Part shown: positions 701 to 44,576 of the stretch, one piece after another
Layout: every line of letters begins with the position of its first letter
Position numbering within the stretch: position 1 is the stretch's first letter
Source of the DNA: Streptomyces sp. NBC_01264
GTDB lineage: Bacteria > Actinomycetota > Actinomycetes > Streptomycetales > Streptomycetaceae
Assembly (NCBI RefSeq): GCF_026340675.1
Contig: NZ_JAPEOX010000009.1
Span: 1-51,350 of the forward strand
Direction: 5' to 3'
Length of the DNA: 51,350 nt
The notes under the pieces: model-generated
What the model was told of the DNA's origin: nothing
The model's input: only the letters and a program-made list of their open reading frames with translations
The model's database searches: none
Translations under genes and position numbers: made by a program

Positions 701-856
701 CGGGCTGGTTTGCTCCTGGTCGAGACCAACCAACCATAATGCATACACCATGGTGATGCACCATGTACTGTTGGCAGAAAGACGAGGCAGGGTCGGGGCC
801 GTTACCTCTGGTCTGAGGCGTAGTCACTGGGATCCGGTATCGGGGAAGGCATGCGA

Positions 857-4725: not shown

Positions 4726-5423
4726 CAGGCACCGCCCTTGGCGGCCTGCGTGACGCTACCGCCGTAGCCGAGTTCAAGGGCGAGCTTGAAGTAGTCTTCA
4801 CGCCCCCGGTACGCGGTCTGGCTGTCGCGGTATTGCGTGACGACTGTCCCCTCAGCGATGGCGCGACTGTGGATCTTGTAGCGTCGGACGACGCCCCGCG
4901 CGACCGGCCACCCCTTCTTAACGATGTAGGCCCGGGTGTCGTCCAAGTCGGCCTTGCCGTCCCTCGGGTCCCAGTTGTTGATGATGACCCGGTACGGGAT
5001 CCCCCGCGGCTTGAGGACTTGCTCGATCGTGCGGGCGGTGGGGTCGAAGCAAAGCGGTTCGGTGATCATCGGCACCACGACGTCGTCGGCGATGTCCAGC
5101 GCTCTGTTCAGGATCTCCTCATCGGCGAGCGTGCCCGGGGTGTCGATGAAGATGTGCTGGTAGGTCTCCGTCTCGCCGAGCGAGTCATGCGTGACGGCAG
5201 CGAGATTGACCGTGGTGGTGGTCTTTCCCACCCCGCCCTTCTGGTTGGCGATGACGTGGATCCTCGCGCCGTGCTGCTTGAGCCTGACGAGCTGATCCGC
5301 CGCATGGTGTGCGGCCATGAAGTCGAAAGGCAGGCTGTCGCCTACCTTCTCGGCCCACGTGACCGCCGACCCCTGCGGGTCGGTGGACACGACGAGTACG
5401 GATGACTGCATGTCACATTCCAA
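4725..5423 (-). CDS. parA: ParA-family partition ATPase with swapped N-terminal segments
   Basis: About 228-232 residues, starting at TTG 5423 or more likely ATG 5411. The elements of a deviant Walker ParA are all present: KGGVGKTTTT (Walker A), STDPQGS (A') and HIFIDTPG (Walker B), followed by the usual C-terminal body (DDVVVPM, INNWDPRDG, LALELGYGG). Their order is abnormal. The A' segment (VLVVSTDPQGS through VRLKQ) comes first, at residues ~7-50, and the P-loop segment (RIHVIANQKGGVGKTT) follows at ~54-72. Family members of Streptomyces plasmids, as I know them, start with the P-loop. The two segments therefore look exchanged while the reading frame stays open. It may be a genuine natural permutation, a non-functional gene, or an assembly error. 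Confidence 0.8.
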   Translation of the reverse strand: MECDMQSSVLVVSTDPQGSAVTWAEKVGDSLPFDFMAAHHAADQLVRLKQHGARIHVIANQKGGVGKTTTTVNLAAVTHDSLGETETYQHIFIDTPGTLADEEILNRALDIADDVVVPMITEPLCFDPTARTIEQVLKPRGIPYRVIINNWDPRDGKADLDDTRAYIVKKGWPVARGVVRRYKIHSRAIAEGTVVTQYRDSQTAYRGREDYFKLALELGYGGSVTQAAKGGA

Positions 5424-29626: not shown

Positions 29627-29935
29627 ACAGGGGACTGAACAACCGGGCGGAGAACTCACACCAGCCCACCAGGCAGCGCGAACGCGCGATGAAGGGCTTC
29701 CGCAGTCCAGGCGGGGCGCAACGGTCCTGTCCGCGTTCATCGGAATCTCACCCCACTTCCGACCCGGACGCCACCTCATGACAGCCGGACGTCACCGCTT
29801 CGAAGTGAGCCTCCGCTTCACCACCTGGAACCACATCACCGGTGCCGACGGCCTGCCCGCCACGGCCTGAACAACAGACCGCCGGCGCCTCTCCCCGCCC
29901 CCAGATGATCATGTCCCCGATAACGTGACAGCACC
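29627..29935 (+). mobile_element. IS6 copy F, divergent 3' fragment
   Basis: Encodes GLNNRAENSHQPTRQRERAMKGFRS and further to the right end CGATAACGTGACAGCACC. It differs in many bases from copies A-E and carries a frameshift near ARTVL (GAQRSCPRSSESH instead of GAQRFLAAFTGISPH). Its left edge is at the IS1182 terminus. Confidence 0.8.
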
Positions 29936-30141: not shown

Positions 30142-30639
30142 ATGCGATATGCACGCACCTCACTCGCCGCCGCCACCGTACTTCTCGCCCTCACCACCCT
30201 CAACGGCACCGCACACGCCAACAACGACCACGGTGACGGTGGCGACACCAAAACCTGCACCATCAATAACACCGGCAATCACAACACCGGAGCCTGCGGC
30301 GACATCAGCCACGGCGACAACGCCACCACCGGACAGTGGCACACGATTGGAGCCACGCAATTTCCTGCCCACGCTACCTTCACTGTCATGAATAACAGCA
30401 GCTTCGACCATATGGCCATTGTCTGTACCCCTCAATCGGCATGCCTGTACCCCGACCTTGGCGTTATTGACAACGGGAAGCAAACCACCATTTATGTCCT
30501 CGCGAGCACGACACTCAAAGGCCAGGTAAATGGAGCAACTTTGGGCTCTGCGAATATCGCCTATAGCAACAATACGGCCGTGGCCACCTGTACTACAGGA
30601 TGTAGCGCCGTCGGATCCGTCATCAACTTTCTGCCGTAG
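30142..30639 (+). CDS. Secreted modular protein P1
   Basis: 165 residues, ATG 30142 after GGAAAGGG. A signal peptide (MRYARTSLAAATVLLALTTL...AHA, ~26 residues) is followed by the family module: CTINNTGNHNTGACGDI then GDNATTGQWHTIG (~38-70). Next comes a beta-rich C-terminal domain with FTVMNNSS, several cysteines (VCTPQSAC, ATCTTGC) and IDNGKQTTIYVL. The module is shared with P2, P3 and P4, while the C-terminus is not. Unlike those, its upstream DNA is unrelated to the common leader. Role unknown; the secreted, disulfide-rich design suggests a surface or extracellular effector. Confidence 0.75.
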   Translation: MRYARTSLAAATVLLALTTLNGTAHANNDHGDGGDTKTCTINNTGNHNTGACGDISHGDNATTGQWHTIGATQFPAHATFTVMNNSSFDHMAIVCTPQSACLYPDLGVIDNGKQTTIYVLASTTLKGQVNGATLGSANIAYSNNTAVATCTTGCSAVGSVINFLP

Positions 30640-30825
30640 CCCGGTCTGCGGGAGTAGGGTCTGACCCTCGATCCTTCAGCCGTCTTCGTGGGGTGATCGG
30701 CTGGCCGCGTCGGCGACTCCGTGTGAGTCCTTGGGGTTCACTTGAGGGTAATGCGGTCCTGGAAGTAGATCGAGAATGTTACTTTATGGGGCGGCTGGTG
30801 CGGGTCCGGGGTGGAACGCAGTGCA

Positions 30826-31732
30826 GGCACTGAGCCTTTTCCAACCTCATGTTGAGGCGTGGTGGAGGGCGAGGACGGCCTTCACGATGTCGGTGATCCG
30901 GTTGGTGCTGCAGCGGAGCTTCCGTAGAAGACGCCAGGCCTTCAAGACGGCCATGGCCTGCTCGCCGACGCACCGAATCTTGGCGTGATTGCTGTTGTGC
31001 TGTCGCTTCCACTGCTTGAGCCGGCGGCCCCGGAAGGGGACTCGGATGTGCCGGCCGGCGCCTTGGCAGGCCAGGCCTTGTCCGCCCAGCACTTCAGGCC
31101 CAGGGCGGCGAGCGCGTCGACGATGCCATGGCTTCGGGCCGCGGTCAGGTCGTGAGTGGCTCCGGGCAGGGCTGGGGATGCCCAGAGCAGTCGGCCGAAC
31201 GGGTCGGTGAGGACCTGGACGTTCATGCCGTGCCGCTTGCGTTTTCCCGAGTAGCAGGGGGTGCCGGCGGCGATCCGGTCGATCGGCAACAGCGTGCCGT
31301 CCAGGATCACGAACGCCTTCGTCCGGGCCGTCTCCATCACCTCGGCCAGGGTCGGTGCGCGAGAGGCCAGGACTTCGATGGCCTCGCGTATGTACCGGTA
31401 AACGGTCGCGATGCCGATTCCGAACCCGGCGGCAAGCTGGGCGTAGGTGCCGCCGCACCGCAAGTGGGACAGGGCGAGCAGGGCCTGACGGCCGGCGGGC
31501 AGCCGTCGCCACCGCGTACCGATCTCCCGTTGCCGAACTGCGAGCTGCTCGGTCAGGTGCCGCAGGGTTCTGCTGGACAGATCGATCGAGGACGGGTAGA
31601 CGAGCACGCGAAGCTCCTGGCGGCACGGGTGATCTTGGTCGAGAACCCGTCTACCAGGAGCTTCGTCGTTCCGTACAGCCCACACCGACCAACACCACAG
31701 CCCCACCGGCAGGTTGAAAAGGGCTCAGTGCC
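30826..31732 (-). mobile_element. IS5-family element with intact ends
   Basis: 907 bp between inverted ends GGCACTGAGCCTTTTCCAAC (left) and the near-identical inverted right end at ~31711-31732. It appears to have landed beside an IS3 remnant. Confidence 0.8.
30847..31607 (-). pseudogene. IS5-family transposase, frameshifted by a 5-bp duplication
   Basis: Start is GTG 31607 after CAGGAG. The first frame carries the HTH (TYAQLAAGFGIGIATVYRYI), D in FVILDGTLLPID and D in CWADKAW. The sequence then leaves frame and continues 30847-ward as GRHIRVPFRGRRLKQWKRQHN with NRITDIVKAVLALHH. At 31067-31076 the pentamer CAGGC occurs twice in tandem; removing one copy restores an uninterrupted frame (ADKA-C-QGAGRHIRVPFRG). 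This looks like a recent inactivating slip. Confidence 0.85.
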
Positions 31733-31749
31733 GACCAGTGCCGAACGCG

Positions 31750-31824
31750 AGGAACTCGGGACTTGGTTACAAAGCCCCGCACGAAGTCTATCTCGAATAC
31801 GAGAAGATGCAGCTCGCAGCGTAA
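31750..31824 (+). pseudogene. IS3-family transposase 3' tail
   Basis: The last codons of an IS3 orfB (RNSGLGYKAPHEVYLEYEKM...AA-stop), resembling the tail of the fragment at 42110-42590 (HSGLGYRTPREVHDEYLNQQ). The upstream part was displaced by the IS5 element. Confidence 0.55.
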
Positions 31825-31871
31825 GTAACTCGCGCAAGCGCTGTCCGTTTTCTTCGGGGCCGCTCACTGGG

Positions 31872-32426
31872 CTATGGGGTGGGGGTGACGGTAATTGTTT
31901 TTGGGCCACCGTTGACGGTGCAGGTCCATCCGGATTTCGGTTGGCATCCGATCACGATGATGGTCAGGTCGGGCAAGTTGGGGTCGCCGCTCGGCTCCGT
32001 GATGGTGGTGCCAAACAGTGTTGCGATTGTTTGATCGGGAGTCTCGAGTGTCCCCGTGCCATTTCCCCGCATTCTGACCGTTGCGGTGCCGGGGATGGTG
32101 GGGGTGGTGGGGGTGGTGGCTGGGATGGTCGCGTTGCAGATTCCTGTGCACGTTAGTTCTTGCGTTGAGTGGTTTGTGATGGTGTAGACGGCGGTGGTGG
32201 GCGGGAGGGCTCCGAGTCCGCCGGTGGTGTGTCCTTGTCCGGTGGTGGCGTGGTCGCCGAAGGTGATGTTGCCGCAGGCGATGTTGCTGTGGTCTCCGAT
32301 GGTGCCGATGGTGATGGTGCAGTTGTTCCTTTTGGTGGTGTCGTCGGCGTGTGCGGTGGTGCCGCCGAGTGTGGTAAGGGCGAGGAGTGTGGTGGCGATG
32401 GCGAGTGCGGTGCGTGTGTAGCGCAT
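31872..32426 (-). CDS. Secreted modular protein P2
   Basis: 184 residues, ATG 32426 after GAGAGGAAA. The signal peptide (MRYTRTALAIATTLLALTTL...AHA) is almost identical to P4's. The module reads CTITIGTIGDHSNIACGNI then GDHATTGQGHTTGG. The C-terminal region is Thr/Pro-rich and beta-like (VYTITNHSTQELTCTGIC, ... GCQPKSGWTCTVNGGPKTI) with four cysteines. Its upstream leader (32427-32538) is homologous to those of P3 and P4 and is cut by an IS6 fragment. Function unknown. Confidence 0.8.
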   Translation of the reverse strand: MRYTRTALAIATTLLALTTLGGTTAHADDTTKRNNCTITIGTIGDHSNIACGNITFGDHATTGQGHTTGGLGALPPTTAVYTITNHSTQELTCTGICNATIPATTPTTPTIPGTATVRMRGNGTGTLETPDQTIATLFGTTITEPSGDPNLPDLTIIVIGCQPKSGWTCTVNGGPKTITVTPTP

Positions 32427-32538
32427 CTGGTTTCCTCTCGTTTCTGTTGGGTGTGGTTGTTGTATTTTGGGTGGGGTGTGGTGGTGGGCTGGAGGAGGCT
32501 TGGCCGTTCGGTTGGGTGAATTGGTGGAGTGTCTTGGT
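32427..32538 (-). promoter_or_regulatory. Conserved upstream leader of P2
   Basis: Read on the - strand it contains CCAATTCACCCAACCGAACG, then GGCCAAGCCTCC and a C/A-rich tract with CCACCACCACA leading to the ribosome-binding site. The same order occurs before P3 (40313-40423) and P4 (42931-43039). Homology continues right up to the IS6 end at 32539. Confidence 0.6.
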
Positions 32539-32719
32539 GGTGCTGTCACGTTGTCGGGGGTGTGATCGTTTGATGGTGTGTCAGGGTGTGCCGTGGCCTG
32601 GAGGGGCCGTGGTTCAGACCGTCGCGGGCATGCCGGCGACGCCGGTGATCTGATCCCAGATCGTGAAGCGGACCCTCATTTCGAAGCGGTGGCGGCTGGC
32701 GCTCATGAGGTGCCGGTGG
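32539..32719 (-). mobile_element. IS6 copy G, 181-bp terminal fragment
   Basis: GGTGCTGTCACGTTGTCGGG end plus the last transposase codons (ITGVAGMPATV-like). It is interrupted by IS6 copy H in the same orientation. Confidence 0.85.
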
Positions 32720-33583
32720 GGTGCTGTCACCTTGTCGGTGGTGTGATCGTTTGATTGCGCGTCAGGCCGTGCGGGGGTCGTCGGCGGCTGGTTGCTCAGA
32801 CCGTCGCGGGCATGCCGGCGACGCCGGTGATCTGGTCCCAGATCGCGAAGCGGACGGTCATTTCGAGGCGGTGGCGGCGGGCGGTCATGAGGTGCCGTCC
32901 GGGTCTGAAGTGGGGTGAGATCCCGGTGAACGCGGCCAGGAACCGTTGCGCCCCACCCGGGCTGCGGAACCCTTTCATAGCCCGTTCCCGCTGCCTCGTT
33001 GGCTGGTGCGAGTTCTCCGCCCGGTTGTTCAAACCCTTGTGGGAACGGTGCTCCACCGAGGGCATCACCTCGCGGTGCGCTGCCCCGTACGACTTCAGCT
33101 TGTCGGTGACGACCACCCGGGGCACCTGCCCGGTGGAGGTGAGGAGCCGACGGAAGAAACGCCTGGCCGCAGCCTTGTCACGTCGATTCTGCACCAGGAT
33201 GTCGAGGACGTTCCCGTCGGCGTCCACAGCCCGCCACAAGTACTTCCGCACCCCGCCGATCTTGACGAAGACCTCGTCCAAGTGCCACTTGTCGCCGGGC
33301 TGCGGGCGCCGCCGGCGCAACGCGTTGGCGTAGACCTGGCCGAACTTCAGACACCACCGGCGGATTGTCTCGTAGGAGACGACCACGCCCCGCTCGAGCA
33401 TCATCTCCTCCACCTCACGGAAGGAGAGCGGGAACCGGAAGTACAGCCACACACAGTGCGAAATGATCTCCACCGGGTAACGGTGATTCGCATACGACGG
33501 CATGCTCGACGACACGAATCAGGCCCCTCTCCGGACGGACAACCCGAAGATCATCTCACCCTGCCCGACAACGTGACAGTGCC
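32720..33583 (-). mobile_element. IS6 copy H, complete variant
   Basis: 864 bp with left end GGTGCTGTCACCTTGTCGG (one C for G change) and right end CGACAACGTGACAGTGCC. About 10% of bases differ from copies A-C, so it is an older or separately acquired lineage. Confidence 0.9.
32796..33515 (-). CDS. IS6-family transposase (copy H)
   Basis: 239 residues with intact DDE residues (WHLDEVFVKI, VVTDKLKSYG, NNRAENS). Relative to copies A-C it has GVRKYLWRA for GKQKYLWRA and KLKSYG for KLASYG. Confidence 0.95.
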   Translation of the reverse strand: MSSSMPSYANHRYPVEIISHCVWLYFRFPLSFREVEEMMLERGVVVSYETIRRWCLKFGQVYANALRRRRPQPGDKWHLDEVFVKIGGVRKYLWRAVDADGNVLDILVQNRRDKAAARRFFRRLLTSTGQVPRVVVTDKLKSYGAAHREVMPSVEHRSHKGLNNRAENSHQPTRQRERAMKGFRSPGGAQRFLAAFTGISPHFRPGRHLMTARRHRLEMTVRFAIWDQITGVAGMPATV

Positions 33584-34208
33584 CTTCGATGGAATCCTGA
33601 GCCTCCTTGCCGACCACTTGGGCCAAGGTCCCGAGGTTGCCCCTCAAGCAACCAAGCGTGGGCGCGGGCCCAAGGTCAACATCAGCATCGACTACGACGA
33701 CCCCAAGCCGACCACGACGCACACCATGGCCGGCAACACGGGCTACAGCCTCACCAGCAACTGGTTCGCCCAGCGAATGGGCCAGTTGATCGTGGCCCGA
33801 CGCGTTTCTGCATCCCAGATCGCGGTGTTCATGTACGTCGCCGGAGGCCAGAAGAAGGGCACCGGAATCACGTCGTACACCCAGCAGCAGATCACCGACG
33901 GGCTCAACGAAGAAGCGGTCAAGATTCCCGACGGCAAGAAGATCACGCGCCCGACGGTGAACAAAGCGGTCAAGGCGCTCTGCGACTGGGGATGGCTGGA
34001 GAGCGCAGGCTATGGTCGCATCCGGCTCAACGTCACCCTGTGGTTCAACGGGAACAGCGGGGAGCAGAAGGAAGTCCTGCAGGGGATCGCGTCCGACCAC
34101 GGCAACGATCCTGAGGGCTTCCCCCACAAGATCGGCCCCCGTGACATCCCCGGGCAGCAGGAGCTCGACTTCGAAAACCTGCCCCACGCCCGGGAGGCGA
34201 CAGGGTGA
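33584..34208 (+). CDS. Replication- or regulator-like winged-helix protein, 5' end cut by IS6
   Basis: The open frame runs out of the IS6 end for ~207 codons. The central region SNWFAQRMGQLIVARRVSASQIAVFMYVAG...SYTQQQITDGL...ITRPTVNKAVKALCDWGWLE is a winged-helix of the type found in plasmid replication initiators (RepL-like) and some plasmid regulators, with a recognition helix around RPTVNKAVKAL. An acidic tail ends at 34208. The start is lost. The next gene, 46 bp on, is another winged-helix, suggesting a two-gene plasmid maintenance or copy-control unit (inference). Confidence 0.55.
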
Positions 34209-34254
34209 TAAGAAACCGAATCCACCCACGAGGCGACCAAGGAGAGAAGACCCG

Positions 34255-34554
34255 ATGGCCAAGCCGGTGATGTCCCCACTTGTGACCGAACGCATCTGGG
34301 CCCTCCCCATCGGAGGCGCCGCGGTGAAGTTTCTCTCCTACCTGGTGTTCAGGAGCGAGCCTGGAAGCGGCGTGCTGCCCTCTCAAAAGACGATGGCGAT
34401 CGAGTACAACGTCAGCCCCTCGGCCATCAGCAACCTGCTGGATCCCCTATTTGAGCTAAACATCGTTCTGCGCACGCCGAGCGAACGTAGCAAGAGGGCC
34501 AACAGGTACAGCCTCCACCTGAGGTTCCCCCGTTGTTCGGGAGTTGCTGATTAG
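34255..34554 (+). CDS. Small winged-helix DNA-binding protein
   Basis: 99 residues, ATG 34255 after AAGGAGAGAAG, a strong ribosome-binding site. The sequence (LPIGGAAVKFLSYLVFR...LPSQKTMAIEYNVSPSAISNLLDPLFELNIVLR) is a GntR/MarR-like winged helix with the recognition helix at SPSAISNLLDPL. The last residues (PRCSGVAD) may be encoded by the left end of the neighbouring IS3 element, so the native C-terminus could be longer. It pairs with the preceding winged-helix gene. Confidence 0.6.
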   Translation: MAKPVMSPLVTERIWALPIGGAAVKFLSYLVFRSEPGSGVLPSQKTMAIEYNVSPSAISNLLDPLFELNIVLRTPSERSKRANRYSLHLRFPRCSGVAD

Positions 34555-35468
34555 CTGGTCAGGAGGGGTTGACGGGTGTTCAGGTTCGCTGGTTCGGCCG
34601 TCGCCTGGTTGGCGTAGTGCTTCTCTTCGTACTCGATCGGGCTGAGGAAGCCGAGCCGTTCCTGGATGCGACGGGAGTTGTAGAAGCCATCGATGTACTC
34701 GAAGAGCGCGAGGTTCGCCTCAGCCCGGGTGGTGAAGGTCCGGCCACGGAGGCCCTCGGTTTTGATGAGCATCCAGAGGTTCTCCGCGAGAGCGTTATCG
34801 TATGAGTCGCCGATCGAGCCCATGGACGCTTCAACTCCAGCTCTCATTAGCCGGGTTGTGAGCTTGATAGACGTGTATTGACAGCCGTGGTCCGCGTGAT
34901 GAATCAGCTGGCCGGGCTCGACCTCGCGGGACGCGAGGGCGTACTCCAGGGTGGTCAGCACCAGGTCGGCGTCCGCGCGGGCGGAAGTCTCCCAGGCGAC
35001 CACCCGGCGGGAGAAGGCGTCGCGGATCGCCGAGAGCCACAGAGGCCCCTCACCGGTGGAGATCATGGTGAGGTCGGTGACCCACAACCGGTTCGGAGCC
35101 GGTGCGGTGAAGTCCCTGTTGACCAGGTCCGGGGCCAGGGTGGCCTTCGGGTCCCGGCGCGTGAAGCCCTTGCGCCGTGGGCTGACCCCCGCGATGTCGG
35201 CCTCGCGCATCAGGCGCTCGACCCGCTTGCGGCCCACGTGGACACCCTCACGCTTGAGGACGGCGTGTACCCGCGGCGAGCCGTAGTTGCCGCCGGAATC
35301 CGCGTGGATCTCTTTGATCCGCTCGGTCAGCTCGACGTCACGGCGCCTTCGCTCGCACGGCTCGGCCTCTGCACGGCGCCAGCGGTAGTAGGTGGAGGAG
35401 GGGATGTGCAGTTCCCGAAGTACGCACTCGACTCCCAGGCACGGGTGCTCGTCAACGAGCGCCGTCAC
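34551..35468 (-). CDS. IS3-family orfB (integrase-core transposase)
   Basis: 305 residues. A linker HTH (YGSPRVHAVLKREGVHVGRKRVERLM) precedes the rve core: D in LWVTDLTMIS, D in IHHADHGCQYTS and E in YDNALAENLWMLIK. It is normally made as an OrfAB fusion by -1 frameshifting from the upstream orfA, which overlaps it by four bases. Confidence 0.9.
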   Translation of the reverse strand: MTALVDEHPCLGVECVLRELHIPSSTYYRWRRAEAEPCERRRRDVELTERIKEIHADSGGNYGSPRVHAVLKREGVHVGRKRVERLMREADIAGVSPRRKGFTRRDPKATLAPDLVNRDFTAPAPNRLWVTDLTMISTGEGPLWLSAIRDAFSRRVVAWETSARADADLVLTTLEYALASREVEPGQLIHHADHGCQYTSIKLTTRLMRAGVEASMGSIGDSYDNALAENLWMLIKTEGLRGRTFTTRAEANLALFEYIDGFYNSRRIQERLGFLSPIEYEEKHYANQATAEPANLNTRQPLLTS

Positions 35469-35773
35469 CTGGGCCGGGTCGGGTCGAGTTGCGCCGCGAA
35501 AAACGCCGAGGCCGTCCGCAGTACGTCGTTGGCCCGCTTGAGCTGGACATTCTCCTTGCGCAGGGCCGCGAGCTCGGCGCGTTCGTCGGTGGTGAGCCGG
35601 TCATCGCGTTCGCCGGCATCCGCCTCCGCCTGGCGGATCCACCCGCGCAGGGCCTCGGGATGCACGCCGAAGTCGACAGCCAGCTTCTTGATCTGGGGCT
35701 TCGGCTCCGCGGTGCGATACATCCGTACCGCACGCTCACGCAACTCGAGCGAGTATTTCCGGGGTGCAGCCAT
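35465..35773 (-). CDS. IS3-family orfA
   Basis: 102 residues from ATG 35773 (MAAPRKYSLELRERAVRMYR). The HTH_Tnp_1 fold (KKLAVDFGVHPEALRGWIRQ) is followed by a leucine-zipper-like coil (ELAALRKENVQLKRANDVLRTAS). Confidence 0.85.
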   Translation of the reverse strand: MAAPRKYSLELRERAVRMYRTAEPKPQIKKLAVDFGVHPEALRGWIRQAEADAGERDDRLTTDERAELAALRKENVQLKRANDVLRTASAFFAAQLDPTRPR

Positions 35774-35922
35774 GGCCACTGGTCCTCTCATGAGTCCCAT
35801 CTGACCCGATGTCAACACTCTCCGCATCCCGGGGGAACCTCACTGCGGCTGCGCCGGGTTCCACGGCCCGGAGACTGCGAGTCTTCTCCTTCCTGGTCCT
35901 CGTTGGGACGCTTTTGTGCTGG

Positions 35923-36744
35923 TCAGGTGGTCTGCGGCTGGCAGGTGAGCCGGTTCCAGGCGAGGGTGAACGTGGTGGCCCAGGGCCATGACGCGTCGAG
36001 GCGGAGGTGCCGGACACGGGCATGGCGGGCGAGGCGCCCGGCCTGGTGGTAGATCCGCATCCGCATGGTCTGGGGCTCGGCGTCGGCAAGGTCGTCCTGG
36101 TCGTGGAGGGCAAGGAGCCGGAGCCAGGCGTCGAGGTCGGCGGCGACGTTCGCGGCGAGCATCCAACTACGATTTGCCGTCCAGGATTTGGCGGGCAGGT
36201 TGTGCAGGCCCATGGCCTTGTTCGTGCGGACGCGGTCCTCGACGACGGCGTGGTGCCGGTGCAAAGCGTCGATCCACTGCACCTGGTGGCTGCCGGCGAC
36301 GCCCCACAGCTTGGTGATGTTGGTCGCGATGATCGAGTATTTCCAGCCGGTCTTCTTCTCGAGGCTGGTGAGGTTCTCGGTGTGCCGGCCCGAGGGCCGG
36401 ACGCGGCGGACGATCAGCCGCATGCCCTTCAGCCAGCCCTCCCGCCGGTTGAGGCCGGTGAGTTCCGCGACGCCACTGTGGTCGTCGTCGTGGAGGTCGC
36501 CGTCTTGTTTGAGGCTGTATTCCCAGGCGTGTTCGGGTAGTTCGGCGATGGCGGTCTCGTCGGTCGGGGTGATGGTCCAGCCGGTGGTGAAGCGGACGCG
36601 CCGTCGGGTGGTGGTCAGCTTCTCCATGTGTTCGTGCAGGTCGTGGGTGGCTCCCGCCCCGTCGAGGCGGATGAGGATCTTCGCACTGGAAGATCCGGGG
36701 ATCTGGGCGAGGGCTTGGTCGAGGACGGTGATGTGGTCGGTGGC
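35923..36744 (-). pseudogene. IS1380-family transposase, C-terminal part
   Basis: Carries the distal family segments: RLDGAGATHDLHEHMEKL, then RRVRFTTGWTIT, and HHAVVEDRVRTNKAMGLHNLP with WMLAANVAADLDAW and a final FTLAWNRLTCQP. The 5' half is missing where a small IS6-ended element (36745) begins. Confidence 0.8.
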
Positions 36745-36908
36745 GGCGCTGTCACGTTATCGATGTATGGCATGGACGCGTCAGTGGATATTTCGGTGGG
36801 CGCCCTGGATCGCATCGTCAGGCGAGAGATTTTCCGTGTCGGACACCTCGGAGGAGGTGCCCAGATTTCCTGACGTGGTCACGCCAATTTCGATAACGTG
36901 ACAGCGCC
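36745..36908. mobile_element. 164-bp MITE-like element with IS6-type ends
   Basis: Perfect 19-bp inverted ends GGCGCTGTCACGTTATCGA and TCGATAACGTGACAGCGCC bound 126 bp with no resemblance to the IS6 transposase. The ends match the termini of the resident IS6 family, so the transposase could move it in trans. The internal DNA is unrelated to other parts of the window that I can see. Confidence 0.7.
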
Positions 36909-37059
36909 AACCCCAGAACACACCACAAGACAGCACCCCGAATACCCACAAACCCACACATAACTTGTGAATAACAGGCAAAACTCATCTTTCTCGTTAA
37001 TTCGCCAGACCGGAACCAGACACCGCGCCCCAATCCCGGACTGAACAACCGGCCTTAAC

Positions 37060-38679
37060 CTTGAGTTTTATCCTGTTCGGCGGGGTTTGGTGCCGACCTC
37101 GTGGTGGGCGGGTCGCTGGTAGGGCTGGCCTGTGACGAGGACTCTTCCCACGTTGTGGCGTGCTGCGGGGTGCCGGTTCTTCGATCCGGGTGGCCGTCCG
37201 GGGCCGGGGCGGGCGGGTTTGGGTGCACCGGCTGGTGAACCAGTGGCGGTTCGGATGTTCCTGAACCCGCGTCGGACCCGGGCGGGGGTGAGTCGTTCGG
37301 GTGGGGTCGGCTTCTCCCAGGGATGCCGGAGGTCCTGTGCGAGCGGCCGGGCGAGATTGAGCTGGGTGTGGGCGGCAACCAGGAGCCATGTCCACCGGTC
37401 TGCGGCCTCGGGGCTGCGGAGCTTGGGGCGGGTCCAGCCCAGGGTCTGCTTCCAGAAGCGGAATGTGTGCTCGACGTCGAACCTTCGCAGGAAGGCCTGC
37501 CAGCAGCGGTCGACGTCAGCCGCGGTGGCGCCGGTCCTGGACCACCACAGCCACACCGGCTTCGGGTCTCCGCCCGAGGGCAGGTGCCCGACCTTCAGGC
37601 GGATGACGGTGCCCTCGATGACGGGCAGCTCGGCAGAATGGTCGATCCAGGCCGCCCGGCGGGTCAGCCGAGGATGGAGCCGGTCCCACGCTTGCGCGGT
37701 CGCTTTCCCGTAGCGGCGGGTGTCGGTGACGGTGACCGCCTGCTCGCCGCCCCAGGTGTCCGGCCGGCCGAAGACGAACTCGCCTCCGTGCCTGGGCGGG
37801 CGTCCGCCGGCGGGGTGGTCCCGGTGGAATTCCTCGCGGGAGGGCGCCGGCCGGCGCATCACCCGGTCCGATCGCGTCCGGCCCAGGATCTCGAGGGGCA
37901 GGTCGGCCAGCAGGTGGGCCAGGCGCGGAGCGTCATAGCCCGCGTCGACCACGATCATGATGTCGGGATCGCCCTCCCGCCACTGGCCCGCTTCGACGAG
38001 GCGATCGACGACCTCTCTGATCTGGGCGGTGGTAACCGCGGCGACGTCGGCGCCCGGCTCGATCCGGATCGCGTCCAGCACGGCGGTCCACGAGGTCCGG
38101 CCCGTCTCCAGAGCGGCCACGATCTGGTAGGGCCAGCCCGGGATCATCAGATGCTTGTTGTCGCCGTACCCGTAGGTATGGCAAAAGCACCGCTCAGGGG
38201 CGGTGTCCGCATCCGGCCGCAACCACGGCGAGACATCGACGGCCAGGACCAGACGGCCGTCGGCCGCCTTCGGCAGCGGGACAGAGACCAGGGCCCTCCG
38301 TAACCGGCCCACATCCAGTCGCCCATGATTCAGCCCGGCATACAGGGCTCCATGGCCACGCCGGTGCTCCGGCGCAAGTGCCAGACCGACCAGCGTCTTC
38401 ACCGGACCGTCCGCACACAGCACCGCGTCGGTCAACTCGAACAGTGCGTCGCCACGGGCCGTCATCGACGCGTACAACTCCGTCCGGAAGCGTGACAACA
38501 CCCCGAACGGCTCCCGCTGGACATCGTGATACAGCAGACTCACCCCTACGGCCTTCGGCTGATTTCGTGCCTCTGTGACGGAGCACAGGATCAGACGAAG
38601 GCCGCCCTGCCGTACGGGAGTTACCACCACGAGTGGTCAAGTTCGAAGAACGATTCGACCCTCGAGGATAAAACTCAAG
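37060..38679 (-). mobile_element. NF041680-type insertion element
   Basis: Bounded by inverted ends TTGAGTTTTATCC (37061-37073) and GGATAAAACTCAAG (ending 38680), each next to TTAA, a possible target duplication. Confidence 0.75.
37068..38543 (-). CDS. NF041680-family DDE transposase
   Basis: About 491 residues from GTG 38543 (VSLLYHDVQREPFGVLSRF), the family's usual beginning; the open frame extends 29 codons further upstream. Catalytic candidates are D in LAVDVSPWLRPDA, D in IMIVVDAGYDAPR and E in FDVEHTFRFWKQTLGW. The C-terminal tail is basic and Pro-rich (GRPPGSKNRHPAAR). No lesions are visible. This is a widespread Streptomyces transposase group. Confidence 0.85.
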   Translation of the reverse strand: MSLLYHDVQREPFGVLSRFRTELYASMTARGDALFELTDAVLCADGPVKTLVGLALAPEHRRGHGALYAGLNHGRLDVGRLRRALVSVPLPKAADGRLVLAVDVSPWLRPDADTAPERCFCHTYGYGDNKHLMIPGWPYQIVAALETGRTSWTAVLDAIRIEPGADVAAVTTAQIREVVDRLVEAGQWREGDPDIMIVVDAGYDAPRLAHLLADLPLEILGRTRSDRVMRRPAPSREEFHRDHPAGGRPPRHGGEFVFGRPDTWGGEQAVTVTDTRRYGKATAQAWDRLHPRLTRRAAWIDHSAELPVIEGTVIRLKVGHLPSGGDPKPVWLWWSRTGATAADVDRCWQAFLRRFDVEHTFRFWKQTLGWTRPKLRSPEAADRWTWLLVAAHTQLNLARPLAQDLRHPWEKPTPPERLTPARVRRGFRNIRTATGSPAGAPKPARPGPGRPPGSKNRHPAARHNVGRVLVTGQPYQRPAHHEVGTKPRRTG

Positions 38680-38727
38680 TTAACTGCCTGTTTCTCAACC
38701 GCAGGCACGAACTGACGCAGGTCAACG

Positions 38728-38765
38728 CTTTGACGGTTCCGGCGGATCTGCCGGAACCGTCAAAG
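38728..38765. terminator. 16-bp stem-loop after the SRPBCC gene
   Basis: CTTTGACGGTTCCGGC (38728-38743) pairs perfectly with 38750-38765 around a GGATCT loop, 31 bp beyond the stop of the - strand SRPBCC gene. Confidence 0.75.
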
Positions 38766-38796
38766 GGCTTGTAGCGCGGGGGTTGTTGGGCCAGGT

Positions 38797-39216
38797 TCAG
38801 GCGCCGGTTTCGAGGATGCGCTTGAGGGTAGCGAGCTCGGAATCGACCAGGGCGACCTGCTCGTCGAAGAAGGCGTCGGTGAAGGCCGGGGGCTGGAAGA
38901 AGGTGATCATGAATTCGGAGCCGGTGCTGTTGGCGACGACGCGGGCGGGGACCTGCCAGGATGCCTGGTCCTCGACGTAGTCGTGGTCGAGGATTCCGAG
39001 TTCTACGTTTCCGCGGATGCGGAGCCTGGCGGGGCCGTGCGGGGTGGCCATCAGCCACCAGTCCGGGTCGTCGGTGGGCTCGATCGCCTTGACGTTGACT
39101 ATCGCCCAGGCGGGCCAGTTGGCCGCGTTGGCGAGGAAGGCGAAGACGTCGGCGACGGGACGCTCGACGGTGACGGTCTTGGTGACCGAGCGGGCGGTGG
39201 TGGGGGCGGTGCTCAT
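38797..39216 (-). CDS. SRPBCC-fold protein
   Basis: 139 residues. Helix-grip START/polyketide-cyclase-like pattern: KTVTVERPVADVFAFLANAANWPAWAI at the start, WWLMATPHGPARLRI in the middle, and a long C-terminal helix (FFDEQVALVDSELATLKRIL). Such proteins bind small hydrophobic ligands. It lies 11 bp after the MarR gene, so the pair is an operon in which MarR probably controls both. Ligand unknown. Confidence 0.8.
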   Translation of the reverse strand: MSTAPTTARSVTKTVTVERPVADVFAFLANAANWPAWAIVNVKAIEPTDDPDWWLMATPHGPARLRIRGNVELGILDHDYVEDQASWQVPARVVANSTGSEFMITFFQPPAFTDAFFDEQVALVDSELATLKRILETGA

Positions 39217-39227
39217 GGTGGCGTCTT

Positions 39228-39689
39228 TCAGGAGGTTGGTGGTGCGGTGGGCCGTGGGAGGGCTTCACCGAGTAGGCGGCGTATCCATTCCTCCAGCTGG
39301 TGGCGCTGGGCCGGGTCGAGGCTGGCGAAGAAGTGGGCGTCGTTGCGGTCGGCGATCTCGGCCAGCTGCGGGGCCAGGTCGCGGCCGGTGTCGGTCAGTG
39401 CCAGCCGCAGCGTGCGGCGGGATGTGGGGTCTGGTTCGCGGGTCATCAGGCCTTTGGCGGCCAGGCGGTCGACCAGGCGGGAGACCGCGCCGGCGTCGAT
39501 GTCCATGTACCGGGCCACTTCCCGGGTGGTGGTGGCGTCGCCGCGGTGAACGGTGATCAGGACTGCCCACTGGGAGACGGTCACGTCATGTTGGGCGAGT
39601 TCGCGTTCGAACCGGCTGTGGACTTCGTCGGAGAGGCGGCGGAGCCAGTAGCCGAGATGATCACGCAGGCCGCTGCTGGAAGCTGTCAC
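39228..39689 (-). CDS. MarR-family transcriptional regulator
   Basis: 153 residues from GTG 39689. The winged helix includes VSQWAVLITVHRGDATTTREVARYMDIDAGAVSRLVDRLAAKGLM and the wing REPDPTSRRTLRLALT; long N- and C-terminal helices form the dimer region (HLGYWLRRLSDEVHSRFEREL, RHQLEEWIRRLL). A palindrome overlaps a promoter-like -35 just upstream, suggesting autorepression. The start has almost no spacing from GGAAGG, so initiation may be leaderless. Its upstream region is truncated by an IS701 remnant at ~39757. Confidence 0.85.
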   Translation of the reverse strand: MTASSSGLRDHLGYWLRRLSDEVHSRFERELAQHDVTVSQWAVLITVHRGDATTTREVARYMDIDAGAVSRLVDRLAAKGLMTREPDPTSRRTLRLALTDTGRDLAPQLAEIADRNDAHFFASLDPAQRHQLEEWIRRLLGEALPRPTAPPTS

Positions 39690-39695
39690 CCTTCC

Positions 39696-39724
39696 AGATT
39701 GAATGCCGCGACAACTGTTGTCAA
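39696..39724 (-). promoter_or_regulatory. MarR promoter and candidate operator
   Basis: On the - strand TTGACA (39724-39719), a 17-bp gap and CAATCT (39701-39696) form a plausible promoter. The palindrome GACAACTGTTGTC (39710-39722) overlaps the -35 and is a typical MarR-operator arrangement. The predicted transcript starts at or near the GTG. Confidence 0.5.
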
Positions 39725-39756
39725 GGCAACAATGGGTTCTTGCCGGGGATGACCAC

Positions 39757-40235
39757 CTATTTGCGAGTTCTCGTCGCCCGTCTCGTCCACCACAAGCATC
39801 ACGTCCATGGAGCCGAGCTGCTCCACCGTCCATGCCGCGGCCGACCGGCGTATCGCCTCGGTGTCGAAGCGGGCACGGGAGAGGAAGTGCTGCAGAACGT
39901 GCGGACCGGTGTGGCCGATGGCCTCGGCCAGCGACCAGCAGTTCGCCGAGTCCTTGACCATCAGCAGCCCCTGAACCATGTTCCGGCAGGTCAGCCGCGT
40001 CTCCCGGCGTGGGAAACAGCCCGCGACCCGGCCCATCAAGGCCTCGAAGGACTCGACCCACAGGCCGTGTACTACCGTGGCCTGCGCGGCCACCGCCTCT
40101 TGATCTGTCTTCACAAACGATCACGATGCAGGTGGCCGCACCTCTGCCCGCAGGCACCCCACCCACCACGCTGACCAGCGACGACGTCCTACGCCTCACG
40201 AACTACAGCTGCCGTGACTACAGCTGCCGTGTCAG
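39757..40235 (-). pseudogene. IS701-family element 5' fragment
   Basis: From ~40114 the frame encodes the family N-terminus (GRVAGCFPRRETRLTCRNMVQGLL, NCWSLAEAIGHTGPHVLQHFLSRARFD) up to LVVDETGDENS, the first catalytic Asp. It then runs into MarR upstream DNA. Terminal DNA to TACAGCTGCCGTGTCAG (40219-40235) matches the remnant at 24734-24750. Confidence 0.75.
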
Positions 40236-40312
40236 AAGTCGCGCTCGTCCTGCAACCAGCCACATCAAACCGGGGCAGAACGACTCAAGGGAGAACTACG
40301 CCGGGGCCGTGG

Positions 40313-40423
40313 AATCAAGACACGCCACCAATTCACCCAACCGAACGGCCAAGCTTCCCCCACCCCACCACCACATCCCACCCAAAATTCAAAAACCACA
40401 CCCAACAGAAAAAGGAAACTCGG
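40313..40423 (+). promoter_or_regulatory. Conserved upstream leader of P3
   Basis: AATCAAGACAC followed by CCAATTCACCCAACCGAACG, GGCCAAGC and a C/A-rich stretch ending AGAAAAAGGAAACTCGG before the ATG. It is colinear with the leaders of P2 and P4. It probably carries the promoter and ribosome-binding site of the family. Confidence 0.6.
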
Positions 40424-41443
40424 ATGCGTTCCACACGCCCGGCACTCGCCATCACCACAACACTCCTCGCACTCAGCAGCCTGGGAACCATCGCCTACGC
40501 CGACACCAGCGACCCCGAACACGGCGATAAAAAATGCAATATCGTTAACAGCGGCAACAACGACAACATTTCCTGCGAAAGCATGATCATCGGAGACAAC
40601 AACACCACCGGCACCGGACACGTTGTTGGGCTCGCAGCCCTGAACCCACCGCTCTCTCAACCACAATGCAGCGTCGTCAGCGGGAACAGCGCCCAATGCG
40701 TCTTCAACATTGCAGGAAGCTACACTTTCCAGATTCCGGAAGGTGTGCAATCGGTGAACGTTTCCGCTACGGGCGCCAGCGGCGCCAGCGCATATCGAGC
40801 CGCGGGCGGGCTTGGCGCAGAGGTCACAGGCACTCTCAGCGTGCCCCCAACCAGAATCTTCTACGTACTCGTCGGCGGCACCCCCACCACGGGCAATTGC
40901 CGTGTACCCACCCTACCCTGCATCGGCGGATTCAACGGAGGCGGCAACAGCTTTGAAGGCGGAGGAGGCGGAGGCGCAAGCGACATCCGCACAACCGCCC
41001 CAGGAAGCCAGGGAAGCCTACAATCACGCCAAATCGTGGCAGCAGGCGGCGGCGGAGTCAGCACCCCGACTCTGAATACGAGTCAGCCCTGTCCTGAAGC
41101 TACGCCCGGAGGTAACGCAGGCATGCCAGGAGGCGCCAACCCCTGCGGTGGCGGCACCAGCGGACAAGCCGGCACCATGAACGCCGGCGGCACCGGAGGA
41201 ACACCCCGTGGCCTCCCCGGAGTTCTCGGAGCGGGCGGCAACGGCGGCGGAACCGGAGGGGGCGGCGGCGGAGGCGGACTCTACGGCGGAGGCGGTGGCG
41301 GCGACACCATTCGATTCGGAAATGAAGCCTTGGGCGGCGGCGGAGGAGGCGGCGGCTCCTCACTCACCCCCACCAACGGAACCGCACCAACAAACACCAC
41401 AAACCCCGCAAACATCACCATCACATACACTATCCCCGGATAA
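40424..41443 (+). CDS. Secreted modular protein P3 with a glycine-rich domain
   Basis: 339 residues, ATG 40424. A signal peptide (MRSTRPALAITTTLLALSSL...AYA) leads the family module: CNIVNSGNNDNISCESM then GDNNTTGTGHVVG. A ~270-residue domain follows, opening with a beta-strand region (CVFNIAGSYTFQIPEGVQSVNVSATGASG). It continues into long Gly-rich runs (FEGGGGGGASDIRT, GGGGGGGLYGGGGGGD) and ends in TITYTIPG. That architecture resembles the glycine-rich (PF12810-like) domain of bacterial and animal extracellular proteins, with the DIRT and VAAGGGG motifs. Long Gly runs and asparagines suggest adhesive or matrix behaviour, which is inference. In-frame sequence upstream of 40424 is leader DNA. 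Confidence 0.8.
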   Translation: MRSTRPALAITTTLLALSSLGTIAYADTSDPEHGDKKCNIVNSGNNDNISCESMIIGDNNTTGTGHVVGLAALNPPLSQPQCSVVSGNSAQCVFNIAGSYTFQIPEGVQSVNVSATGASGASAYRAAGGLGAEVTGTLSVPPTRIFYVLVGGTPTTGNCRVPTLPCIGGFNGGGNSFEGGGGGGASDIRTTAPGSQGSLQSRQIVAAGGGGVSTPTLNTSQPCPEATPGGNAGMPGGANPCGGGTSGQAGTMNAGGTGGTPRGLPGVLGAGGNGGGTGGGGGGGGLYGGGGGGDTIRFGNEALGGGGGGGGSSLTPTNGTAPTNTTNPANITITYTIPG

Positions 41444-41489
41444 TGCTGAGATTCCCCCGGAATTTGCGACAACCGACTTCCCTTGCCGA

Positions 41490-41600
41490 ATGGTCCCCGG
41501 CCGCCGGTGCGGCCGGCCTCCTCGGCCAGGACACCCTGGCCCGCCCGGGGTTTCATCCGCGCAGCCCCCTCGGGGTCCGCGGGATGGAGGCGTTAGCCTT
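41490..41600 (+). pseudogene. ISAs1-family transposase vestige
   Basis: Encodes LLGQDTLARPGFHPRSPLGVRG, matching QDTLSRLGFHARGPLGVRR of the ISAs1 transposase at 20643-21671. Flanking frame is lost. No other gene is credible between 41444 and 42110. Confidence 0.6.
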
Positions 41601-41988
41601 CCCGTCAGTCGTGGCGACGGCAACCGCGGCGTTGACGACGATGTTCGCGTGCGCTCGGCACGCTTCCACTCCCACTGAACCTCGGACTGCCACACGCGGA
41701 TCCGCGTCAACCGGCCGCGGCAGCAGGGCCCTGGCCGAAGCGCGGTACGTCTGCCGCAGTCACATCGAGGCGCAGTCGCTTGAAGCGCAGCGGGTGGCGG
41801 AACACTCCGCCGTGGTCTGAGACGCCCCGAACCTTCCGGGCAGTGTTCCAACTGGCGCGGCGTACAACGTCATTGCCCCCGCCTCGCGGGGCGGGCGGGC
41901 GGGCGCCCGCTTCGCAGGCTTCGGCCAGCTTTCTAGAGCGAAGCGGAAGAAAGCTGGCCGGCTTCGCCGCCCTGGTGCCAGCCTTCGG

Positions 41989-42015
41989 CCGGAGTCCTGC
42001 GCTTCGCTCCGGACT
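41989..42015 (+). repeat. Copy 2 of the hairpin repeat
   Basis: A 27-nt segment beginning CCGGAGTCCTGCGCTTCGCT, identical to 42709-42735 and, over 22 nt inverted, to 29979-30000. The DNA following (CCCACCC-GGTCCTT-CGGCTCCG) is also repeated at ~42848-42878. Confidence 0.75.
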
Positions 42016-42109
42016 TGGGGACCGCTCCCCCACCCGGGTCCTTACGGCTCCGTCTCCAGGGCCAACGCAGCCGCGCCTCCCCCAACGCGCACGCCCACCC
42101 CCCCCAAGA

Positions 42110-42590
42110 TGCAAGTGCCAGACCCATCCCCTGGGAAGGCTGGGTATTCCTCGCCACCGTCATCGACTGCCACACCAAAGCCGTCATCGGGTGGGCCATG
42201 GACGACAACTACAAGACCCCACTCATCGAATCAGCCATCAAAATGATGGCACGCAACCATCCACTCGCCGAAGACGCCATCTTCCACTCGGACCGCGGCA
42301 GCAATTACACCTCGGCCCAGTTCGCCCATACACTGACCGAACTGGGAATCCGGCAATCCGTTGGACGAACCGGAATCTGCTACGACAACGCCATGGCAGA
42401 ATCATTCTTCGCGACCCTGAAAAATGAACGTGTCCACCGGACCATCTACCCCACCCGCGAACACACCTACCGCGACATCGCCCGCTACATAGAGGTCCGC
42501 TACAATACGAAGCGCCGTCACTCAGGACTCGGATACCGGACCCCACGAGAGGTCCACGACGAGTACCTGAACCAGCAGATCGCAGCCTGA
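42110..42590 (+). pseudogene. IS3-family orfB C-terminal fragment
   Basis: Carries the second catalytic Asp (IFHSDRGSNYTS) and the Glu (CYDNAMAESFFATLKNERV), plus the terminal HSGLGYRTPREVHDEYLNQQIAA. The first Asp region is lost; sequence before WEGWVFLATVIDCHTKAV is unrelated. Confidence 0.8.
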
Positions 42591-42599
42591 ATTAACTAA

Positions 42600-42880
42600 T
42601 TGGCAGCTGTCCGGAAAACGCGGGGCCCCTCAAACGGCCTCGCTGCGCTCGGCCGGGCCCTTCGGCCCGGCTCTCCGCTTCGCTCCGAGCAAGAGCCGGC
42701 CCTTCGGGCCGGAGTCCTGCGCTTCGCTCCGGACTAGTTCGGGGTTCCGCTTCGCTCCACCCCGAACGGCCCGCTCCGCGGGCCAGAGTGACCCCGTTTC
42801 ACGGGGTTCAGGGCCTTCGGCCCGTTGGGCAGGCTTGCTCTGCTCCCCACCCAGGTCCTTCCGGCTCCGCCTCCAGGACC
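42600..42880. repeat. Cluster of short GC-rich hairpins
   Basis: Successive perfect inverted repeats with TTCG or GCTTCGC loops include CGGGCCCTTCGGCCCGG (~42654-42670) and CCGGCCCTTCGGGCCGG (~42695-42711). Others are the 27-nt repeat at 42709-42735, CGGGG-TTCCGCTTCGCTCCA-CCCCG and CCCCGTTTCACGGGG. No open frame makes sense. It lies between an IS3 fragment and the P4 leader and shares blocks with 41940-42060. Confidence 0.65.
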
Positions 42881-42930
42881 AGCCCCTCCGCTTGCCTGCA
42901 TCATTCTGAATTCAAAGATAGACCCTGGAA

Positions 42931-43039
42931 TTAAGACACTCACCCAATTCACCCGACCGAACGGCCAAGCCTCCCCACCCCACCACCACACCTCAACCAA
43001 AATACAACAGCCACACAGACCAGAAAAAAGGAAAGCCGA
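42931..43039 (+). promoter_or_regulatory. Conserved upstream leader of P4
   Basis: AATTAAGACAC, then CCAATTCACCCGACCGAACG, GGCCAAGCCTCC, a CCACCACCACA tract and AGAAAAAAGGAAAG before the ATG. Colinear with the P2 and P3 leaders. Confidence 0.6.
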
Positions 43040-43699
43040 ATGCGCTACACACGCACCGCACTCGCCACCGCCACAGCCCTACTCGCCCTCACCAGCCTCG
43101 CCACCACCGCACACGCCAACAGTGACGGCAAGGACAAAGACGGGAAAAGCAACATCTGCTACATCCACGTCGAAGGCAACCACAACCACAACGCCTGCGG
43201 CAGCATCAAATACGGCAACAACGCCACCACCGGCTCAGGACACAACGTGCGGGGCCTATCAGACTATCCATACCAATGGAACATGTGCGCCGGAATTCAG
43301 AACCTGGACACAACCGGCAACTTGACCATGGAAAATTTCGAGTGGACCTCAGACATCAACGACGCAAACTCTGCTCTCGCCAATGTGACTCCTGGCTTCA
43401 TCAGCAACAACCGAAATGATCCTGACGACGGCGGAAGCCTAGGAAATGGACAGAGCGCAGGCGCATGCATTTCCGCCATTGAACCACCACGATTCACCCT
43501 TTCGGCTACCATTCACGACGCCCGCAATAATAGGGATACTCGAGTATCATTCAGCCTTCTACACCCAGGTCAAAACGTCTACAACCAGCCCCCGACTCTC
43601 GCAATCGTCGGAGGGCGCCCTTACACCTTCGTCACCTCCACCAGCACCGCTAATAACACTCCCGCTGGAACCTTCGGCCTCCAGAACCCGCCAGTTTAA
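43040..43699 (+). CDS. Secreted modular protein P4
   Basis: 219 residues, ATG 43040 after AAAGGAAAG. A signal peptide (MRYTRTALATATALLALTSL...AHA) precedes the module CYIHVEGNHNHNACGSI then GNNATTGSGHNVRG. The C-terminal domain (~150 residues) has Asn- and Asp-rich strands (MENFEWTSDINDANSALANV, PRFTLSATIHDARNNRDTRVSFSLLH, RPYTFVTSTSTANN) and two further cysteines. It is unlike the C-termini of P1-P3. Function unknown. GC is lower than the plasmid backbone. Confidence 0.8.
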   Translation: MRYTRTALATATALLALTSLATTAHANSDGKDKDGKSNICYIHVEGNHNHNACGSIKYGNNATTGSGHNVRGLSDYPYQWNMCAGIQNLDTTGNLTMENFEWTSDINDANSALANVTPGFISNNRNDPDDGGSLGNGQSAGACISAIEPPRFTLSATIHDARNNRDTRVSFSLLHPGQNVYNQPPTLAIVGGRPYTFVTSTSTANNTPAGTFGLQNPPV

Positions 43700-43780: not shown

Positions 43781-44576
43781 GGTGCTGTCACGTTGCCGGT
43801 GGCGGTCTGGGATAATCTTCGGGTTGTCCGTCCGGGGAGGGGTCCGAGCATGCCGTCCGCTACGCCGTCGTACGCGAACCACCCCCGGCCGAGATCATCG
43901 CGCATTGCGTGTGGCTGTACTTCCGCTTCCCGCTCTCCTTCCGCGAGGTTGAGGAGATGATGCTCGAGCGGGGCGTCGTCGTCTCCTACGAGACCATCCG
44001 CCGGTGGTGTCTGAAGTTCGGCCAGGCTTACGCGAACGCGCTGCGCCGCCGGCGCCCGCAGCCCGGCGACAAGTGGCATCTCGACGAGGTCTTCATCAAA
44101 ATCGGCGGGGTGCACAAGTACCTGTGGCGGGCCGTCGACGCCCATGGCAACGTGCTCGACATCCTGGTCCAGAACCGGCGGGACAAGCCGGCGGCCAGGC
44201 GCTTCCTCCGCCGGCTCCTCACCACCACCAGGCAGGTCCCGAGGGTGATCGTCACCGACAAACTGAAGTCGTACGGGGCAGCGCACCGCGAGGTGATGCC
44301 CTCGGTGGAACACCGCTCCCATACAGGGTTGAACAACCGGGCAGAGAACTCCCACCAGCCCACCCGTCAGCGCGAACGCGCGATGAAGGGGTTCCGCAGC
44401 CCCGGGTGGAGCGCAACGCCCGCCACCGCCTCGAAATGACCGTCCGCTTCAGATCTGGAACCACATCACCGGCGCCGCCGGCATGCCCGCCATGGTCTGA
44501 ACCCCGGCCCCTCCAGGCCCCGGCTCACCCCTGACGCACCATCAAACGATCACGCCGCCGACAACGTGACAACGCC
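43781..44576 (+). mobile_element. IS6 copy I, degenerate
   Basis: Ends GGTGCTGTCACGTTGCCGG and CGACAACGTGACAACGCC are present. The transposase is damaged: its start region is frameshifted before HCVWLYFRFPLSFREVEEMM, and a deletion after KGFRSPG removes the GAQRFLAAFTGISPHF-GRHLM segment. Readable codons span 43909-44439. Confidence 0.85.

Follow-up and report, generated by a model that had tools for sequence, protein, structure and literature searches.

A secreted Streptomyces protein family with a constant N-terminal DNA block and highly variable C-terminal domains on IS6-rich replicons

Polymorphic toxin systems combine a constant N-terminal export part with interchangeable C-termini (PMC3482391). 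In the Streptomyces UmbA proteins the N-terminal docking domain is constant, and the C-terminal lectins are highly divergent and used promiscuously in one particle (PMC11062931). Aegerolysins, in turn, have been proposed to act in competitive exclusion (PMC9505663). We studied a secreted family that also has a constant N-terminal export part and interchangeable C-termini, in a window of 51,350 nucleotides from Streptomyces sp. NBC_01264. The window is the whole stretch of DNA that was analysed, and is referred to as contig C9.

The window contains four ORFs of this family, at the positions given in an earlier sequence-only reading. P1 (30142..30639, + strand, 165 aa) consists of a signal peptide, a module (residues 39-69; 30256..30348, +) and a 96-residue C-terminal domain that is predicted to be a beta-sandwich by an AF2 model. 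P2 (31872..32426, - strand, 184 aa) combines a signal peptide and a module (residues 36-68; 32223..32321, -) with a Thr/Pro-rich C-terminus starting with YTITNHST. In P3 (40424..41443, + strand, 339 aa) the signal peptide and module (residues 38-68; 40535..40627, +) are followed by a Gly-rich C-terminus matching PF12810 (ALK_LTK_GRD, 1.5e-15), and in P4 (43040..43699, + strand, 219 aa; module at residues 40-70, 43157..43249, +) by an Asn-rich C-terminus. The four proteins share the proposed signal peptide, MR[YS]xRxxLA...A[HY]A, as well as the proposed module, C-x-I...G[ND]xN...C...G[DN]xx-T-T-G-x-x-H, in which the Cys, Gly, Thr-Gly and His positions are invariant. Their N-terminal architecture comprises a Sec signal peptide, a linker of ~12 residues and a Gly/Asn-rich module of ~32 residues. 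Judging from these sequences, P1-P4 are presumably exported by Sec. Another ORF, P5 (44686..45099, + strand), encodes a secreted protein of 137 aa without the module, and its mature part has a YTIVNKT sequence as in payload starts. It was negative in a profile test, and is possibly a module-less relative, though an unproven candidate.

The whole genome (10,673,219 bases in 10 contigs) was searched with the 70-aa N-terminus of P4. Ten copies were found (E 2.6e-42 to 2.9e-10); C9 carries four of them, and C5 (162,044 bases) and C7 (102,342 bases) carry three each. That ten copies share this N-terminus is not due to chance. A profile search added the weak members C5:101396 and C8:20611 (half-modules) and C7:7866, the last of which was strong under a wider module profile (E 8.8e-11), giving at least three remoter members beyond the ten copies. 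All 13 profile matches at E 10 were located on C5, C7, C8 (63,221 bases) and C9, which make up ~3.6% of the genome.

C9 starts with a helicase with a helicase-associated domain (851..3526, +); 155 plasmid records matched this helicase, and in all 15 of the records listed the match lay within ~6.4 kb of a record end. C9 also carries ParB-like (just under the cut-off) and ParA-like partition genes (3760..5423, -) and a gene weakly similar to a VirB4-like ATPase. The ends of C5 are imperfect terminal inverted repeats built of palindromes, a feature of linear Streptomyces replicons. The ends of C7 share repeats in both orientations, and its completeness is unproven, as is that of C9, where no inverted repeat was common to the 3-kb ends. 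The best explanation is a multi-copy family whose carriers in this genome are small replicons, rich in IS elements and, at least in part, linear. Two more unnamed ORFs in the window, at 24747-25193 (-, with a signal-peptide-like start) and 47308-48567 (-), matched neither Pfam (E 0.01) nor NCBIfam (E 0.001).

We calculated mean pairwise DNA identities among the ten own-genome copies, using shuffled sequence as control. Identity was 0.45 (shuffled 0.36) from -260 to -116, 0.62 (0.42) from -115 to -1 and 0.72 (0.41) in the block coding for the signal peptide and module. It was only 0.37 (0.38) over the initial 240 nt of tail sequence, and 0.38 (0.37) in the 150 nt past the stop. The onset lies ~110 bp upstream of the start codon, and identity falls to background within about three codons after the last His of TGxxH. 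Hence, what stays constant is a block of DNA consisting of a 5′ leader of ~110 bp, the signal peptide and the module. The identities of block versus tails (0.72 vs 0.37) bear out the earlier suggestion that a constant export cassette carries variable payloads; the anchor role proposed with it is hypothetical.

Within the block, 4-fold degenerate sites were 0.70 identical (0.53 expected), and the median dN, dS and dN/dS were 0.30, 0.42 and 0.74, respectively. Mean dN divided by mean dS was 0.60 for the signal peptide, 1.05 for the linker (computable for 37 of the 45 pairs) and 0.67 for the module. Third-position GC ranged from 0.72 to 0.85 in nine N-blocks, with 0.62 in that of C5_99600, and from 0.60 to 0.72 in the tails. 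Because the leader and the 4-fold sites are conserved besides the protein, these results imply that the block was shared recently and that selection on the protein alone is insufficient as an explanation of this conservation.

The leader contains an 18-mer, CAATTCACCCAACCGAAC, that occurred eight times with <=3 mismatches in the 10.67 Mb, against once for a reversed-pattern control. All eight occurrences were 76-86 nt upstream of family start codons (8 of 10 members; P1 and C7_28277 lack it). In the window they precede P2 (32506..32523, -, 0 mismatches), P3 (40329..40346, +, 0 mismatches) and P4 (42945..42962, +, 1 mismatch). No known RNA element matched the leader in Rfam at gathering score over 29800-43800.

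The window contains 21 IS6 terminal repeats, compared to 0.18 expected; the IS6 transposase was identified by NF033587. Six of the 12 members tested had an IS6 end <=400 bp upstream in the same orientation as the gene, and none had one facing the other way. For positions drawn at random from these stretches the mean was 1.0, and none of 20,000 draws attained six. The IS6-end motif had been spotted in the alignment before this placement test. The association of family copies with IS6 ends, a check suggested in the sequence-only reading, is supported. An IS6-type terminal repeat points toward P1, 211 bp before its start (29917..29931, +, 1 mismatch), and another (32543..32557, -) directly adjoins the P2 block, 117 bp ahead of the start of that gene. 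Beside P2 lies an IS6 element with terminal repeats at both ends (32724..33579, -; transposase 32796-33515), and 86 bp downstream of P4 a further IS6 element (43785..44572, +; transposase ORF 43909-44439). The six scanned ORFs flanking P1-P4 were transposase-like (27797-29779, 30942-31706, 32796-33515, 39686-40114, 42015-42590 and 43909-44439). The genome as a whole has a very high load, with 188 sites of one IS6-type terminal repeat; among the 100 sites listed, those on C1 were all but one in its first 253 kb, and the remainder were on C2-C9.

Neither Pfam nor NCBIfam placed the module in a named family over the cut-off, and no PDB sequence matched it, in agreement with the earlier reading, which knew of no named family with it. 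A single JCM17656 protein gave the only sub-threshold Pfam overlaps of a module, with MreC (E 0.011) and DCTN5 (E 0.22). No Pfam curlin match was obtained, and the best match to CsgB (NF007506), on P4 residues 21-63, reached E 0.071 and 12.9 bits against a cut-off of 165. Two findings that would have spoken against the original proposal, a module inside a known family with conserved C-termini or N-termini resembling merely generic signal peptides, did not emerge. We recognised no description of the module family in the open-licence PMC literature. The module is kept in two subfamilies with different signal peptides, and the Cys-type and Cys-less modules are homologous (hhalign 97.1%, E 7.5e-11) according to alignments without shared rows (A4/A5); a second comparison (A7/A6) had rows in common and was discounted. 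Since the module is short, conserved across subfamilies and predicted to be unstructured alone in both structure models, it fits a docking or self-association element, and may serve as one.

A protein search with P4 residues 1-72 yielded 16 proteins, four in the own genome, seven in Streptomyces sp. NPDC086023 and five in Streptomyces sp. IBSNAI002. NRRL F-2664 has one contig with a family member. In Streptomyces sp. JCM17656, a linear plasmid of 192 kb has eight copies, of which one is Cys-type and seven belong to the Cys-less subfamily; in five of these seven (one decayed) DNA identity was 0.73 (shuffled 0.42) for the N-block and 0.47 (0.40) for the tails. Further relatives were found in S. 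osmaniensis, S. massasporeus and NPDC048384. This recurrence of the family in other Streptomyces (NPDC086023, IBSNAI002 and others) with other C-termini supports the sequence-only reading. Some members are located off small contigs: an 8.57-Mb contig carries two of the five in IBSNAI002, and a 10.1-Mb contig carries P0023 and P0027.

In a Streptomycetaceae sample, the N-block profile matched 9 of 394 genomes at E 0.001. Whole-block matches were found in the own genome and two others (E 1.1e-19 and 4.4e-11), while the other six were partial and weak (E 8e-5 to 1e-3; model positions 1-35 to 2-63 of 71); G371, the one translated among these six, was a different protein. The module profile matched six of the 394 at E 0.01. 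Three of 100 genomes matched in a sample of relatives (the own genome, G411 and a false match), and three of 396, including the own genome, in a phylum-wide module search. The phylum-wide match in G653 was false, being a metallophosphatase-like ORF by our reading. Among the relatives, the match in G449 (E 9.3e-5) proved on translation to be another kind of protein. The weak match in G048 (E 0.0026) is plausibly a real member. Hence, the family is rare in the sampled genomes and found in a few Streptomycetaceae.

A broad plasmid family was not found by tblastn against 72,556 plasmid records (queries P4, P0018, P0017, P0029, C7_7866 and P3; E limits 0.1 to 0.001), which gave one family-bearing record, CP075613.1, in a set from which the own-genome records may be absent; another match, in Azospirillum, was to a low-complexity part of P0017. 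A viral origin was rejected, as IMG/VR gave no relative with either subfamily alignment and the phage records none with P0003. Two other Streptomyces have a variant (L028 1501-1989 and L015 1495-1983) with the first half of the module followed by GTGHVTGxNHT; their C-termini are similar and SH3-like, and the G389 copy lies on a 9.9-Mb contig. Two apparently decayed members, P0002 and the CP075613.1 copy near 125 kb (L038 24860-25159), have short, out-of-pattern C-termini; the upstream DNA of the latter is 98-99% the same as that of the copy at 125558-126130. The CP075613.1 member at 145657-146370 (L038 45657-46370) has several GSGPGYAHD-like repeats between signal peptide and module.

The tails had been described as completely divergent, which is not supported in that wording: 30 of the 39 payloads examined share a first-strand motif, a pattern chosen after looking. 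Several tails probably represent a single fold in variant forms and not unrelated domains. For one payload class, structure models confidently predict an actinoporin/aegerolysin-type fold, which this class would share with actinoporins, aegerolysins and Cry34Ab1. The P4 tail has a weak profile link to the subfamily B payloads, the class with this predicted fold, and the P1 tail a weak match to the same class at the level of modelled structure. Among nine candidates from a protein search the P1 tail matched only itself; a P4-tail search of 297 genomes gave two weak matches besides the own genome, and the frames read there had no module. The aegerolysin model (PF06355) matched nothing in the genome at E 1 and none of the 30 members scanned with Pfam, and PDB sequence matches at E 10 included no aegerolysin and no actinoporin. 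The predicted fold suggests lipid or glycan binding; lysis by the payloads is possible, but not implied.

True tail replacement is clear for the Gly-rich tails of P3, C7_10940 and P0016; PF12810 (cut-off 24.5) scored 58.3 bits in P3 and 43.4 bits in C7_10940, in the C-terminal domain only. Replacement is likely for the SH3-like tails of G389 and G411, which are alike (G411 SH3-like at E 0.04, below the cut-off), and possible for the C7_26981 class. Pairwise phmmer of tails gave many weak pairs, with decoys to 4e-5, and only pairs of ~1e-6 or better were used. In the profile test, G4 and P0009 beat all shuffles, over alignments of just 24 and 15 columns, and were given no weight. Eight pooled tails showed third-position GC bias (0.53/0.52/0.64).

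Among 23 sequences, mean N-block identity was about equal within strains (62.9% over 76 pairs) and between them (63.5% over 177 pairs). The blocks of P0005 and P0009 are 90% identical, and their tails do not match at E 0.5. In the Gly-rich trio, the tail of P0016 is closer to P3 (50%) than to C7_10940 (41%), whereas its block is closer to C7_10940 (61%) than to P3 (42%); this opposite order means that block and tail relatedness are discordant. In two own-genome pairs with homologous tails, dS of block and tail was 0.46/0.90 and 0.55/1.13, with 0.5% of bootstraps of the difference at or below zero for each pair; 4-fold counts by themselves gave no support for this difference (p 0.15 each). Thus, the block is common at neutral sites and in protein and the tails are not, similar blocks carry different tails, and the Gly-rich tail class is borne by blocks of discordant relatedness. 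The best explanation is that each gene is a mosaic of a constant 5′ block joined to a very variable C-terminal domain.

We give about an even chance to the reading that this mosaic family forms a set of extracellular proteins that serve recognition and possibly lysis. Recombination would spread or homogenise the block, assisted by flanking IS6 elements, and after export the module would let the protein dock or self-associate, either on the hypha or as part of a multiprotein particle. The C-terminal domain would then bind lipid or glycan on the surface of a neighbour, prey or host; in several members this domain is a putative actinoporin/aegerolysin/lectin-type beta-sandwich. Alternatively, the family might consist of secreted toxins, pore-forming or lytic, in which the module is a trafficking or partner-binding element. 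We think this unlikely. The predicted fold shared with actinoporins, aegerolysins and Cry34Ab1 agrees with it, as does the competitive-exclusion role proposed for aegerolysins (PMC9505663). No toxin domain over the cut-off and no enzymatic toxin domain were found, and the own genome had no MACPF partner at E 0.1. An anti-phage defence role was dismissed after PADLOC gave no match for P1-P4, P0021 and P0025. The module may also be a short motif that polymerises in the manner of amyloid or curlin into a surface layer, where the tails would decorate the coat and not act in recognition or attack. The pair of G[ND]xN-type elements flanking hydrophobic residues, the weak match of P4 to the curli minor subunit CsgB and the lack of modelled structure in the module alone are consistent with this, yet the missing Pfam and PDB matches argue against it, and we consider it rather improbable.

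Two further explanations concern the origin of the tails. If IS6 elements copied a promoter-leader-signal block before arbitrary DNA, the tails would be non-functional read-through and their variety debris. IS6 ends upstream of members, the two apparently decayed copies and a P1 tail without relatives among its nine candidates would agree with this. However, tails with third-position GC bias, a known domain (PF12810), classes recurring across strains, a strand motif at a similar place and one class with a confident predicted fold make it very unlikely. We assign even less probability to a single family that diverged without recombination, with its N-block under selection and its tails evolving fast: the invariant residues of the module and the fold that many tails may share accord with it, but conservation extends to the non-coding leader and 4-fold sites with a median dN/dS of 0.74, identity falls off abruptly, base composition differs across the junction, and the Gly-rich trio shows discordant relatedness. 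Returning to the recognition repertoire, a more specific and rather doubtful version is that small replicons act as reservoirs, in which the leader, export and docking block is repeatedly recombined with IS6 help onto an actinoporin/lectin-type scaffold that diversifies until its sequence is no longer recognisable, giving every strain a separate set of binders to display or release.

If true, this would be a bacterial counterpart of constant/variable surface systems, and a genus known for small-molecule weapons would also keep mobile, reassorting sets of secreted actinoporin/lectin-like proteins. Most of the source annotations examined list these proteins as hypothetical. The block boundary, family-specific leader and IS6 flanks offer handles for studying extracellular protein diversification in bacteria, and the module is directly testable for docking or polymerisation.

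The comparison with known systems shows both likenesses and differences. Chaplins, curlins and other functional amyloids resemble the module in having a short, secreted, Gly/Asn-rich, possibly beta-forming motif and a Cys pair, here in subfamily A; the present module, however, lacks a profile match over the cut-off, and chaplins are not known to have a variable globular tail. By analogy, the umbrella toxin UmbA is likewise a secreted Streptomyces family with a constant N-part and variable C-terminal domains. Yet the N-domain of UmbA is trypsin-like, and its lectins in S. coelicolor are mostly beta-propellers (PMC11062931), whereas the present family has a ~32-residue module, no Pfam match in the N-block, and small predicted beta-sandwich or Gly-rich tails. 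Unlike aegerolysins (PF06355) and actinoporins, our proteins have no such Pfam match or PDB sequence match at E 10, and their payloads are fused to a constant module in a hypervariable multi-copy family. The family shares with polymorphic toxins a constant N-terminus and recombining C-terminus; it differs in payloads that look like binding folds in the models, and no recognisable immunity gene was found among the six ORFs scanned beside P1-P4, where a small unrecognised one is possible. Its distinctive features are a mosaic boundary at neutral sites, a leader element confined to the family and, under some unalignable tails, a likely actinoporin-type scaffold.
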